A stretch of DNA of 64,000 bases, from positions 124,001 to 188,000 of the forward strand of contig JAIORD010000005.1 in the NCBI GenBank assembly GCA_021108275.1. The letters run 5' to 3'. Of the stretch, positions 22,681 to 50,122 are shown piece by piece. The notes under the pieces were generated by a model that made no database searches, was not told where the DNA came from, and was given only the letters and a program-made list of their open reading frames with translations. Numbering within the stretch: the first letter of the stretch is position 1; each line of letters opens with the position of its first letter. The DNA comes from Methanococcoides sp. (GTDB lineage Archaea; Halobacteriota; Methanosarcinia; Methanosarcinales; Methanosarcinaceae). A program made the translations under genes and the position numbers.

Positions 22681-22735
22681 AAATAATTGTAGGGGCTGTA
22701 TAGATAAACATTTTTGCAAGATACCGAGGTTGAAC

Positions 22736-24817
22736 ATGTCCGTAAAAAACAGATGGCAATTCTGGATAGATAGGGGAGGAACATTTACAGACGTTATTGG
22801 CAGATCTCCCGAGGGAGAGACCATCACCCATAAACTACTCTCGGAAAACCCGGAACATTATGAAGATGCAGCAATTGAAGGGATACGCCAGATGCTTGAC
22901 CTCGGAGCAGATGAGCAATTGCCAACAAAGGACATTGAATGCATAAAGATGGGAACAACGGTAGGTACAAATGCACTTCTTGAAAGAAAAGGCGAGAACT
23001 TTGCCCTTGTAGTAACCAAAGGGTTCAGAGATGCCCTAAGAATAGGATACCAGAATCGCCCGGAAATATTTGCACTTGATATCAAGCTCCCCGAAGTTCT
23101 ATATGAAAGCGTTATAGAAGCTGAAGAGCGCTACAACTCCAGGGGTGAAGAGCTGGCACCCCTTAATGAGGACAGATTAAGGAGAGACCTTAAAGAACTT
23201 CATGATTCTGGAATATATTCTATTGCAGTAACTCTTATGCACTCTTATCGCTACCCGGAGCATGAACTTGCTGTTGAAAGGATTGCAAAGGAGATAGGAT
23301 TCACACATATTTCCCTGTCCCACAAGATCAGCCCCCTTATAAAAATAATAGGACGCGGGGAAACGACCATGGTGGACGGGTACCTTTCACCCGTATTAAA
23401 GCGCTATGTTGACAGGATACATTCAGTATTGCGATCCAATGGAGATGAAACCAGCCTTTTGTTCATGCAATCCAACGGAGGGCTGACACAGGCGACCTCT
23501 TTCAGAGGCAAGGACAGCATCCTGTCAGGTCCTGCCGGAGGTATCGTGGGGGCGGCAACCGTATCAGAGGTTGCCGGATTCAAGGAGATCATAAGTTTCG
23601 ATATGGGCGGGACTTCCACGGACGTAGCACACTATAACGGGGAATATGAACGCTCATTTGAGAATGAGATCGATGGAATACACCTCTATTCCCCGATGAT
23701 GCACATCCACACGGTCGCCGCAGGTGGCGGGTCTATACTGCACTATGAAAATGGAAGATTCCAGGTCGGACCAGATTCTGCAGGATCAGAACCCGGACCT
23801 GCATGCTACAGGAAAGGCGGACCTCTGACAGTCACTGATTGTAATGTGATGCTCTCAAAAGTAATCCCAGAATATTTCCCACAGGTTTTCGGGGATTCAG
23901 GCACATTGCCCCTCGATACAGGAACTGTTCACTCAAGGTTTGAGGAAATGGCATCGGAGGTCTCGGAAGGATCAGGCAAGAGCAGATCCCCTGAAGAAGT
24001 GGCAGAGGGATTTTTGACAGTCGCTGTCGAGAACATGGGAAATGCCATCAAGAAAATATCAACACAGAGAGGATACGATCTTAAAAGTTATACACTCTGT
24101 TGTTTCGGAGGAGCTGGTGCACAACATGCCTGCCTTGTCGCGGATTCACTGGGAATGAGCACGATCTTCATCCACCCATATGCAGGGGTCCTTTCAGCAT
24201 ATGGCATGGGACTGGCAGACCAGAGAATGATACTTGAAAGGTCCGCGGAAAAAGACCTGAATACCGACACCATAGAGCAAATGCGAGAACTGTTCACTGA
24301 AATGGAAACTGAAGGATATCAGTCAATGCGGGAGCAGGGTGTCTCATCTGACAGGCTCATCGCTAAAAAGAAAGTGCATGTGAGATACAGCGGCACGGAC
24401 ACTCCGCTGGAGATAGAGTTCGGAAGTACGAAGGACATAACAACAAGATTCTTTGAGGCCCACAGGAAGCGTTTTGGTTTTGTAATGGAAAAGGAACTTG
24501 TGGTTTCCGCAGCATCCGTGGAGATGATCGGAGCAAATGAGGTCCATGTGGAAAGCAAGGAGATGGAAACTTCCGAGAATGACTCAGGACCATGCGGAAC
24601 GGTACAGATGTACACCGATGGAAGATACCAGACTGCAAATGTCTACGAACGCTACTGTTTAAATACAGAACATTCTGTAACAGGCCCAGCTCTTATCATT
24701 GAAGATAATACTACGATAATTGTGGAACCACTGTGGAAAGCGGACATAGATGCTCAAGGCCATATCATCCTCACGCGCACAGCACCTCCAAAGGAGCATG
24801 TTGCCCTCGGCACATAG
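22736..24817 (+). CDS. hyuA: N-methylhydantoinase A/5-oxoprolinase subunit A (HyuA), ends in TAG
   Basis: The ATP-binding half of the hydantoinase/5-oxoprolinase family, which hydrolyses cyclic amides with ATP. The 693-residue protein opens with [13 protein letters not shown], has [16 protein letters not shown] near 76 and the actin-fold phosphate loop [13 protein letters not shown] near 290. ATG 22736 follows a GAGGT ribosome-binding site; an in-frame TTG at 22730 is too close. The frame ends in TAG at 24815-24817, one of only two TAG ends in the window. It continues open through IDPI into hyuB, so a pyrrolysine-containing fusion is possible (see findings). Confidence 0.9.
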
Positions 24818-24829
24818 ATCGATCCCATC

Positions 24830-26347
24830 ATGCTTGAAGTGTTCAACAACCGGTTCATGTCAATTGCGCAGCAGATGGGATATAGCCTTCAAAATACCGC
24901 ATATTCGGTCAATATAAAAGAGAGGCTTGATTTTTCCTGTGCTATCTTCGACCAGAAAGGAAATCTCATCGCCAACGCTCCCCACATACCGGTACACCTC
25001 GGATCGATGGAAGAATCCATCAAAGCGGTGATAGGGAACAGAAAGGGGAGAATGAATGAAAAGGATGCATATATGCTGAACTCTCCGTATGCCGGCGGCA
25101 CACACCTTCCCGATATCACTGTAGTATCCCCGGTATTCTGCGGCTGCGATGAAGTGCAGTTCTATGTTGCATCAAGAGGTCACCATGCCGATATCGGAGG
25201 GATAAGCCCGGGTTCGATGCCACCCAAGAGCAGGTCCATCTTTGAGGAGGGGATATTGATAGATGATATCAAACTCATGGACAGGGGACATTTCAGGGAG
25301 AGTGAAGTTACCGAACTCCTGACCAGTGGTGAGCATCCAGTACGCAATCACCACCAGAATATCGCTGACCTCAGGGCACAGGTAGCTGCGAATGAAAAAG
25401 GCATACAGCAACTCGAACAGATGGTGGAGAAATATTCGCTGCCAACGGTAATGGCATATATGCAACATGTGCAGGATAACGCCGAAGAAGCTGTAAGGAA
25501 GGTCATCGAGGTCCTGCATGATGGAGAATTCACTTACAAACTTGATGATGACAGCCAGATCCACGCAAGTATCAGGATAGATAAGAACGAACGGTCAGCA
25601 ACTATTGACCTTACAGGAACGTCACCGCAGCAGGATAATAATTTCAATGCACCTGCATCAGTATGTAAGGCTGCCGTACTCTACGTGTTTCGCACTCTTG
25701 TAAAGGACAATATCCCATTAAATGCAGGATGTCTGAAACCTCTCAATATAATAATACCACAAGGATGTTTACTGAACCCGTCCCACCCCGCAGCAGTTGC
25801 AGCAGGAAATGTGGAAACCTCACAGTATATAGTGGATACCCTCTATGGCGCACTGGGAATCATGGCAGCATCCCAGGGAACCATGAACAATTTTACCTTT
25901 GGGAACCAGGAATTCCAGTATTATGAGACCATCTGCGGCGGTTCAGGCGCAGGAGACGGATTCAATGGTACAGATGCCGTACAGACCCATATGACAAATT
26001 CCAGAATGACCGATCCCGAAGTCCTTGAATTGCGTTTTCCGGTACTCCTTGAAGAATACTCTATAAGGAAAGGAAGCGGAGGGAAAGGAGAATACTGCGG
26101 AGGAAATGGCGTTTTCCGTAAAGTGCGATTCCTTGAGGAAATGAAAGCAGCAATAATATCCTCGCACCGGAAATATCCACCCTTTGGTTCGAACGGCGGC
26201 TCAGAAGCGGAATGTGGTAAGAATATGGTGGTCAGGAAGGACGGAAGGGTACAGGAGCTGGAACCAACCGCTGAAGTGGATATGGAAGAGGGGGACGTGT
26301 TCGTGATAGAAACTCCGGGTGGCGGCGGTTTTGGTAAAAGGGAATGA
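24830..26347 (+). CDS. hyuB: N-methylhydantoinase B/5-oxoprolinase subunit B (HyuB)
   Basis: The second half of the hydantoinase/5-oxoprolinase pair, 505 residues. Family markers are the start MLEVFNNRFMSIAQQMG, the segment SPYAGGTHLPDITV, RGHHADIGGISPGSMP and the glycine-rich end TPGGGGFGKRE. It is in the same frame as hyuA, five codons after the hyuA TAG. No ribosome-binding site is visible before ATG 24830, so translation must depend on hyuA, by coupling or by UAG readthrough. A decayed copy of its 3' end lies at 28021-28065. Confidence 0.9.
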   Translation: MLEVFNNRFMSIAQQMGYSLQNTAYSVNIKERLDFSCAIFDQKGNLIANAPHIPVHLGSMEESIKAVIGNRKGRMNEKDAYMLNSPYAGGTHLPDITVVSPVFCGCDEVQFYVASRGHHADIGGISPGSMPPKSRSIFEEGILIDDIKLMDRGHFRESEVTELLTSGEHPVRNHHQNIADLRAQVAANEKGIQQLEQMVEKYSLPTVMAYMQHVQDNAEEAVRKVIEVLHDGEFTYKLDDDSQIHASIRIDKNERSATIDLTGTSPQQDNNFNAPASVCKAAVLYVFRTLVKDNIPLNAGCLKPLNIIIPQGCLLNPSHPAAVAAGNVETSQYIVDTLYGALGIMAASQGTMNNFTFGNQEFQYYETICGGSGAGDGFNGTDAVQTHMTNSRMTDPEVLELRFPVLLEEYSIRKGSGGKGEYCGGNGVFRKVRFLEEMKAAIISSHRKYPPFGSNGGSEAECGKNMVVRKDGRVQELEPTAEVDMEEGDVFVIETPGGGGFGKRE

Positions 26348-26469: not shown

Positions 26470-27588
26470 TTAATCAAAATTGTCTATACTATAGGCATTT
26501 GGGTTTTTAATCACCCAATTTTCTAAAAGCTCATGACCGAAATACATTTTTTTGTAGGGATCAGTACTTATCTCCCAGAATCCAAAAACATTATCTTTAC
26601 CTTTCATTTTTTTTAAGTCGAGTGTCCAATTTTTTTCAGCCATTTTTGCTGAAAGCATATTTTTATGGCCCTCGATATGAAGAACAAGTAATGGAAGGAA
26701 TTCATAAGTAAAATTTGCCCCTCCTATTTCAGAACTGTGACTTTTGAATCTTTCTCTGAGATTGCTAGTAAATCCAACGTAATAATTTGATTCTTCACAT
26801 CCTAGCACATAAACCCAATATTTTATTTCTGGACCATTTGGGGTGTTTTCAAAAAGTTCTTCTTTTGCCGTTGGAATTATATCTTCCCAAACAACTCGTA
26901 TATCAGGTTTGGAATTAATAAATTCTGTATAAGTTTTTATATAGGAACCATATTTTACCCTAATATCGTCCAAAAGTTCGATTTGCCCCATTTTTGCATC
27001 CATTTCGTTATCATAATACATTTCAAATTCAAGTTTTTTCGGTTTGTAACCTTTAGTAAAACTTCCCATATTTCCATTTTTGTGATCAGAATAAGTTTTT
27101 GCTAAATTTGTTGTCATTCCAATATATCGGGCATTTTTATTACAAAGTAAACTGTAAACTATAAATTTCCCATTTGAGTTAAGACTTAATTCTCTTTTAG
27201 ATGAATCTATATTTGAATTGGAGTCTAATTCTTTTTTAGATTGATTTAATAATGAAGATGTAAATTTATTCTCAGTTGAAAGCAGGCATTTTATATTGTT
27301 TTCCATCTCAAAATTAGAAACTTTTTTATAGCGTTTAGAATCCATTTTAACGTTGCATGGACCCATCACTTTAGATAATATATCATAAGCTATTACATTT
27401 AGAATCTCTGCTTTTTCAACTGAATTACTTTCACAAATTAGAACAATATCCAATGGAGCATATTCTTTAGTAAATGAAGGCCCTTTCCCATTTACCATTC
27501 TTTGTAAATAAACATCTAATTCCCTCTGTGTAAATCCAACCCAATACTTTTCAGACTCGCACTTAACAACATACACACTGTATTTCAT
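26470..27588 (-). CDS. Protein with three GIY-YIG nuclease-like domains
   Basis: A 372-residue protein built from three GIY-YIG-like units, by position about 3-75, 143-215 and 257-330. Each starts VYxxxC and continues to YxxG(F/M)T: VYVVKCESEKYWVGFT, VYSLLCNKNARYIGMT and VYVLGCEESNYYVGFT. Each keeps the later SFTK/NFTY and a downstream Glu (about E61, E203, E318). Unit 3 has the full Arg-rich helix (NLRERFKSH); unit 2 lacks the Arg and may be inactive. Units 1 and 2 are joined by a Ser/Asn-rich linker. The gene is much more AT-rich than its neighbours, suggesting recent transfer. Cellular role unknown. Confidence 0.82.
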   Translation of the reverse strand: MKYSVYVVKCESEKYWVGFTQRELDVYLQRMVNGKGPSFTKEYAPLDIVLICESNSVEKAEILNVIAYDILSKVMGPCNVKMDSKRYKKVSNFEMENNIKCLLSTENKFTSSLLNQSKKELDSNSNIDSSKRELSLNSNGKFIVYSLLCNKNARYIGMTTNLAKTYSDHKNGNMGSFTKGYKPKKLEFEMYYDNEMDAKMGQIELLDDIRVKYGSYIKTYTEFINSKPDIRVVWEDIIPTAKEELFENTPNGPEIKYWVYVLGCEESNYYVGFTSNLRERFKSHSSEIGGANFTYEFLPLLVLHIEGHKNMLSAKMAEKNWTLDLKKMKGKDNVFGFWEISTDPYKKMYFGHELLENWVIKNPNAYSIDNFD

Positions 27589-27597
27589 TAATTCCAC

Positions 27598-49417: not shown

Positions 49418-50122
49418 ATGGAAGAGATGATACAAAATGCATTTGGGTGGATAAAAAAACAGGAGCTCACCACTGCAAAGGAATTATCACGCCTCATCAC
49501 TGCATACGAACTATGGGGTGTGGAAAATGACCTTCCTACAAAGCTCATCCACCTTAAAAGTGAAAATAACTGGGACAATTCAATAAGAGAGACTGCAAGA
49601 GCCTGTTCCAGCCTTGTATCTTCCAACTTAGACCTTGAAGAATGTGGGCAATGGTTGCTTTCTAAAAGGGAGAACAACGGTTCATGGCAGAACGATGTTT
49701 ACGACACAACCTATGCATTAATAGCCCTTGCCGAGATGGGCATCCATGAAATGAAAGGTTGCAATTGGCTTGTTGAGAACTATGGTGAAAAATGGGAACA
49801 TGTGGGCACTACATCCCTTATCATCACCACTCTTGTAAAGCAGGAAGATCTGACAAATGAGAAGCATTTCACTGACTTTATAGAAGAACGTGTCAAATGG
49901 ATCTTGTCGGAGAGAGATGAAGACGGTGGTTGGAAATTCATCTCGACCAGCAATCTGGTAATACAGGCATTGGCTATTGTCTGTTTGAAACAAGAACTTG
50001 ATACATCTTTCAAATGGCTAATGTCCAGACAGAACAGCAATGGTTCATGGGGAAAGAATGAAGGAGATATTACTGCAACCGCACTTTCACTTATCACTTT
50101 GGGATACGCACATAGACTGTAG
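49418..50122 (+). CDS. Alpha/alpha-toroid (prenyltransferase/squalene-cyclase repeat) protein
   Basis: A 234-residue protein made of helical-hairpin repeats of the terpenoid-cyclase/prenyltransferase toroid type. QW-like motifs occur three times: WLLSKRENNGSW, WILSERDEDGGW and WLMSRQNSNGSW, each followed by a T/S-rich helix such as TATALSLITLG. It is far shorter than squalene cyclases and lacks their catalytic DxDD, so a binding or scaffold role is more likely. It ends in TAG (50120-50122); readthrough would add a pyrrolysine and 20 residues. Its last 29 bases overlap the convergent kinase gene. Confidence 0.75.
   Translation: MEEMIQNAFGWIKKQELTTAKELSRLITAYELWGVENDLPTKLIHLKSENNWDNSIRETARACSSLVSSNLDLEECGQWLLSKRENNGSWQNDVYDTTYALIALAEMGIHEMKGCNWLVENYGEKWEHVGTTSLIITTLVKQEDLTNEKHFTDFIEERVKWILSERDEDGGWKFISTSNLVIQALAIVCLKQELDTSFKWLMSRQNSNGSWGKNEGDITATALSLITLGYAHRL

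Follow-up and report, generated by a model that had tools for sequence, protein, structure and literature searches.

The hyu locus

The window, a stretch of 64,000 nucleotides covering C1:124001-188000 of a 2.67-Mb archaeal genome assembled in 60 contigs (genome G000), contains two apparent genes of the hydantoinase/oxoprolinase family, hyuA and hyuB, lying in the same frame (Table 1). A TAG codon closes HyuA and is followed by ATC GAT CCC ATC and then by the ATG at 24830, and the frame past this TAG is free of stops through HyuB up to the TGA at 26345-26347. Re-reading of the frame thus confirmed the first-pass annotation, which had described a HyuA ending in TAG, followed by IDPI, Met 24830 and an open frame. 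Translation through the TAG from the ATG at 22736 gives a product of 1203 residues, the length that had been predicted for a fusion, in which the TAG is codon 694 and the HyuB ATG codon 699; these 1203 codons contain neither a second internal stop nor a frameshift. When the TAG is read as a residue, the Pfam domains Hydant_A_N, Hydantoinase_A, Hydant_A_C and Hydantoinase_B are all found in one frame, and no NCBIfam model for the enzyme matched at its curated cut-off. Just downstream of hyu, on the opposite strand, lies a gene for a GIY-YIG domain protein (26470-27597, minus strand), possibly a mobile-element or nuclease gene.

Table 1. Features of the hyu locus (positions are those of the window)
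Feature	Position	Strand	Remarks
Fused hydantoinase/oxoprolinase-family gene (HyuA-HyuB)	22736..26347	+	1203 codons + TGA, with the internal TAG read through
Shine-Dalgarno-like GAGGTTGA of hyuA	22726..22733	+	Upstream of ATG 22736; duplex energy -7.5 kcal/mol
HyuA part: Hydant_A_N, Hydantoinase_A, Hydant_A_C	22736..24814	+	Pfam
In-frame TAG, codon 694, proposed pyrrolysine, in the HyuA-HyuB linker	24815..24817	+	Sense codon in relatives
HyuB part: Hydantoinase_B	24818..26344	+	Pfam; dN/dS 0.06-0.12 vs four same-genus genomes
ATG codon 699, possible separate HyuB start	24830..24832	+	Matches an internal Met of fused enzymes; no Shine-Dalgarno sequence

An initiation signal of its own was not found for hyuB, since no Shine-Dalgarno (SD) sequence precedes the ATG at 24830, whose pairing with the anti-SD amounts to -0.5 kcal/mol against -7.5 kcal/mol for the HyuA ATG, in agreement with the earlier remark that HyuB has no visible ribosome-binding site. 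A pairing at least as good is displayed by 82% of the 1370 plus-strand ATGs tested in the window, and the next in-frame starts, at 24839 and 24857, also lack an SD (-0.5 and -2.6, respectively). Of 33 further starts chosen by hand in the window, seven pair no better than ATG 24830, so that the absence of an SD by itself decides nothing.

Pyrrolysine machinery and other TAG codons in the genome

The pyl genes, together with a tRNA-Pyl with anticodon CTA (at 785-856 of L001), are located about 33 kb beyond the end of the window. The pylS gene is full-length (434 bits), and the pylS, pylB, pylC and pylD proteins all score above the NCBIfam cut-offs; pylT and pylS, whose absence the first-pass annotation would have taken as evidence against its proposal, are therefore both present. 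pylS was also found in 99 of the 111 genomes of the family, including all 11 of the genus that were examined. One TAG each lies inside two of the four MtmB-family matches and inside the single MttB-family match of this genome, and the frame of an mtbB-like ORF on the same contig continues past a TAG at codon 359.

Few ORFs end in TAG: of the 175 that reach 120 aa on the contig holding the window, six do. Two of these six are inside the window, hyuA and a 234-aa ORF at 49418-50122, matching the initial count of only two apparent TAG stops. The 234-aa protein (plus strand) shows weak squalene-hopene-cyclase-like matches and ends in TAG in G000 and in two same-genus genomes, G016 and G017; a similar 20-codon extension follows the TAG in G000 and G017, so that even this terminal TAG might be read through. 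pylB (C1:221990-223051, plus strand, outside the window) ends in TAG here and in G016, and the same end has been reported for M. burtonii, M. mazei and M. acetivorans (excerpts of PMC2933860). With both pylB and the 234-aa protein ending in TAG in G000 and G016, UAG looks like a stop too in these genomes, which counts against reading the hyu codon as pyrrolysine.

Outside the window, a PAS histidine kinase (C1:50946-52616, plus strand; L055) carries a TAG at codon 557, inside the HATPase_c domain, with the frame running on for 88 codons, and a kinase of G017 has a TAG at the same place of the motif; a histidine-kinase TAG candidate is mentioned for three other archaea (excerpts of PMC3639795). 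A SLFN_AlbA_2 domain protein with a GmrSD_N match below cut-off (C1:38393-40279, minus strand, also outside the window; L054/L055) has a TAG at codon 629, in the AlbA_2 domain, and this is likely another sense TAG.

UAG is decoded in pyrrolysine-using archaea without a required cis signal (excerpts of PMC2933860 and PMC8211752), and the PYLIS element is not essential (excerpts of PMC2933860). No PYLIS-like element was seen after the hyu TAG, where the fold z-score is ordinary (-1.44); an Rfam scan of this region at E-values up to 10 returned a sub-threshold snoRNA as its lone match, Rfam 15 being a release that may lack a PYLIS model.

The fused gene and codon 694 in relatives

A match to the gene is present in 77 of the 111 genomes of the family. 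In 50 of these 77 it aligns near full length in one piece, and, by our own tally of the rows of the family search, 47 of the 50 are stop-free, three have one TAG and none has TAA or TGA. The TAG-bearing genomes are G000, G016 and G031. One of the 50, G048, has a second, short match that holds a TAA, and the remaining 27 matching genomes show broken or partial matches, with TAA or TGA in G076, G088, G089 and G090. All 80 named loci opened, the best 80 of 592 and nearly all bacterial, continue in one frame without a stop across the junction; these were chosen as the closest by similarity and are therefore not an even sample. The best solved relative, the N-methylhydantoinase 7HK5, is likewise a single chain and aligns over 10-1200. 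As judged from these alignments, the gene is ancestrally fused, an old single gene which gained a TAG in its linker. The proposal of a readthrough fusion made in the first-pass annotation thus holds as regards the readthrough, which is the best-supported reading given the pyl genes, the fused relatives with sense codons and the recurring TAGs, and not as regards two genes newly joined. In the fused gene of G017 (L007) the last approximately 30 residues are out of frame relative to its relatives, so that its C-terminus differs.

Position 694 is occupied by a sense codon in 49 of 50 family loci opened, a set different from the 50 near-full-length genomes and with codons shown for 48: E in 31, D in eight, K in four, N in two, Q, S, T and G in one each, and TAG in one. 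This comparison among related genomes, which the first-pass annotation had suggested, therefore places a TAG in G000 and a sense codon in its relatives, within one fused ORF. None of the relatives opened among the family loci has a TAG at 694, and that this TAG is a singleton of one genome counts against the pyrrolysine reading. The same-genus relatives read GAG, AAG, GAT or AAT, and the nearest of them carry GAG (G017, G022 and G023) or AAG (G016), making the one-change path from GAG to TAG the simplest. The residue is equally free among the named loci (again the best 80 of 592), where E, K, D, T, Q, S, R, A, N, C and G occur, and by this measure residue 694 sits in a variable linker. An AlphaFold model of residues 5-1203 (mean pLDDT 68.7) would place it between the final strand of HyuA and the first helix of HyuB, in a junction (model residues 683-730) where pLDDT is below 50 and the model unreliable. 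CapB of the two-chain caprolactamase 6YRA aligns from residue 694 onwards, so that the TAG falls on a natural border between two chains, where termination would be least harmful; this also argues against the pyrrolysine reading.

Independent TAG codons and selection

The two other TAGs of the family are found elsewhere in the gene. G016 has AAG at 694 and its TAG at 740; this codon belongs to the conserved core of HyuB (DFSCAIFD-TAG-EGNLIANA) and is CAG, CAT or AAT in relatives. In G031, which belongs to another genus, the TAG is codon 8 of the gene (alignment position 7), and TGG stands there in the five genus relatives opened; the motif DRGGTFTD comes right after this TAG, and the next in-frame start, a GTG, is found 14 codons later, past this motif. 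As aligned here, neither of these places allows an explanation by separate subunits. pylS is present in all three TAG-bearing genomes; G016 is a 76%-complete assembly, which counts against the pyrrolysine reading. Since the share of TAG among the possible one-step stops in the gene is 0.369, three TAGs out of three would be expected by chance at about 0.05, which is suggestive, not strong. Across 228-240 kb of synteny shared by G000, G016 and G017, each ordered pair has 0-1 TAG and 0-2 TGA as internal stops, with no TAG bias, numbers that are too few in three species for this comparison to discriminate.

Both halves of the gene are under purifying selection. In pairwise comparisons of G000 with G016, G022, G023 and G017, the HyuA part has a dN/dS of 0.16-0.18 and the HyuB part one of 0.06-0.12; among the stop-free pairs (G022, G023 and G017) the HyuB part gives 0.07-0.19, the values that involve G017 being raised by its out-of-frame last residues. 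The purifying selection on the HyuB part indicates that HyuB is conserved and presumably made.

Split genes in distant archaea

Among 392 genomes of the phylum searched, 134 have a match. In five distant cousins (30-36% identity) hyuA and hyuB share one frame with a stop at the junction, which is TAG in G229, TAA in G340 and G128, and TGA in G190 and G135; four of the five have no pylS match, and G128 has two. The hyuB ATG of G229, G340 and G128 directly follows the stop, their linker lacks 7-10 residues, and the end of hyuA contains an SD (-14.2, -7.4 and -6.5 kcal/mol, respectively). The TAG of G229 (L162), one of the genomes devoid of a pylS match, looks like a true stop at the homologous border, being placed immediately before the hyuB ATG and accompanied by a strong SD. 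G190 and G135 are alike at the junction, with an ATG one codon past the stop and the linker kept on the HyuB side, and no SD precedes hyuB in G190, for which it was computed (-0.7). The window, with its fused-type linker, its lack of an SD and its ATG 12 nt away, is unlike the three cousins closest in sequence (G229, G340 and G128). Judging by the five cousins, a genuine stop can occur at this border, which speaks against the pyrrolysine reading, as does G271, whose HyuB contains a TAG at position 852 and whose genome has no pylS match. Outside the family, the remaining matches are mostly to HyuB alone at the E-value used; in the two that were opened, G275 and G243, hyuA is a separate match adjoining hyuB.

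Interpretation and alternatives

The locus probably encodes a fused, 1203-residue ATP-dependent enzyme of the hydantoinase/oxoprolinase family in which UAG 694 is decoded as pyrrolysine following a recent single substitution. Fused relatives with sense codons at 694, purifying selection on HyuB and a HyuB without an SD make pyrrolysine the most likely reading of this UAG, and the apparent two genes are probably one enzyme. The amber codon in the variable HyuA-HyuB linker would have arisen in this species through one base change, probably from GAG to TAG, and tRNA-Pyl(CTA), charged by PylRS, would read this codon as pyrrolysine in competition with the release factor. The product would be the full enzyme, carrying a non-catalytic and probably surface-exposed pyrrolysine in a linker that tolerates it. 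Termination at the UAG by part of the ribosomes may leave HyuA alone; a reporter in M. acetivorans gave 20-30% of full-length product (excerpts of PMC2933860), so that some HyuA alone may be made here as well. By analogy with the Thg1 gene of M. acetivorans, we infer that the TAG is a recent neutral gain.

Reinitiation at ATG 24830 remains the chief rival of pyrrolysine decoding. According to it, the gene underwent a recent fission, UAG ends HyuA, HyuB is made by termination-reinitiation at an ATG only 12 nt past the TAG, and the chains assemble as in two-subunit relatives, of which CapA/CapB (6YRA) is an example. The position of the TAG on the natural subunit border, the border stops of the five distant cousins (two of which have an ATG one codon on, with no SD where computed), the TAG-ended genes of this genome and the commonness of SD-less starts in the window all favour such a fission, which we nevertheless consider unlikely: the three weak starts at 24830, 24839 and 24857 (-0.5, -0.5 and -2.6) stand against the SDs of three split cousins, the linker of the fused type has been kept, and the TAGs at 740 in G016 and at 7 in G031 cannot represent fission at a domain border. 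A compromise is unlikely too; here the TAG would occupy the one position at which either outcome yields usable enzyme, the fused form by readthrough and the two-chain form by termination with reinitiation, so that pyrrolysine buffers a fission intermediate and the supply of Pyl-tRNA sets the ratio.

It is very unlikely that the TAG results from a sequencing error, or that the gene is decaying through a nonsense mutation and its HyuB is not made. The TAG is a singleton in a draft genome of 60 contigs, the assembly of G016, with its own TAG, is only 76% complete, and broken copies with TAA or TGA exist among the partial matches (G076, G088, G089 and G090); against this stand 1203 codons with no other stop or frameshift, a complete pyrrolysine system in the genome and a dN/dS of the HyuB part (0.06-0.12) within the range of stop-free pairs (0.07-0.19). 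A regulated dual output, in which the HyuA-to-fusion ratio tracks the supply of Pyl-tRNA and growth on methylamines controls the amount of active enzyme, has a precedent in the bacterium Acetohalobium, where the meaning of UAG depends on the substrate (excerpts of PMC8211752), and would fit the partial readthrough of the M. acetivorans reporter (PMC2933860). It is nonetheless extremely improbable, as no relative opened has a TAG at 694 and selection for a switch is therefore not visible.

On the preferred reading, pyrrolysine decoding of a fused enzyme, the locus adds to the probable pyrrolysine proteins one that is not part of methylamine metabolism, from a gene family that has acquired TAG three times independently. 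This favours the idea that, where pyrrolysine can be decoded, amber codons drift into ordinary genes. The locus also points to an annotation hazard, because standard pipelines would break the enzyme up into two genes. Together, the three orthologues with a TAG and the stop-free sister genes form a natural set with which to gauge how often UAG means sense and how often stop. Some archaea, including Methanococcoides, reportedly read all TAG codons as pyrrolysine, and the 2025 Science paper said to describe this may already list such genes.

Among the titles listed by a literature search, none concerned a pyrrolysine hydantoinase or oxoprolinase. Neither enzyme is mentioned in main-text excerpts of PMC3639795, whose ranked list sits in the supplement, or in excerpts of PMC1914089. 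Excerpts of PMC9768040 place a hydantoinase-like protein in a gene cluster for glycine betaine and do not present it as containing pyrrolysine.

Comparison with known systems

The architecture of the hyu product is that of the fused 5-oxoprolinases/N-methylhydantoinases (7HK5 and relatives), two parts in one chain aligned over 10-1200, which differ in having no internal stop in any named locus opened (the best 80 of 592). Caprolactamase CapA/CapB (6YRA) and the split archaeal HyuA/HyuB are built from the same two parts, which meet at codon 694; in contrast, these are separate chains, and hyuB of three of the five split cousins begins immediately behind the stop with an SD of its own.

With the methyltransferases MtmB, MtbB and MttB, hyu shares the in-frame TAG and the same pyl genes, TAG-bearing MtmB and MttB being encoded in this very genome. 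Their TAG is conserved and located in the active site (excerpts of PMC8211752 and PMC2933860), whereas that of hyu is not conserved and occupies a variable place. The closest parallel is Thg1, the tRNA-His guanylyltransferase of Methanosarcina acetivorans, another amber codon in a non-methyltransferase gene of one species of the pyrrolysine-decoding family, with relatives that lack it. Pyrrolysine has been observed in the Thg1 protein (excerpts of PMC2933860), whereas the hyu gene is known here from its sequence alone, and the hyu TAG, unlike that of Thg1, is placed in an inter-domain linker at a natural subunit border. The hyu gene is thus a probable new case, of the Thg1 kind, of pyrrolysine drifting into an ordinary gene.
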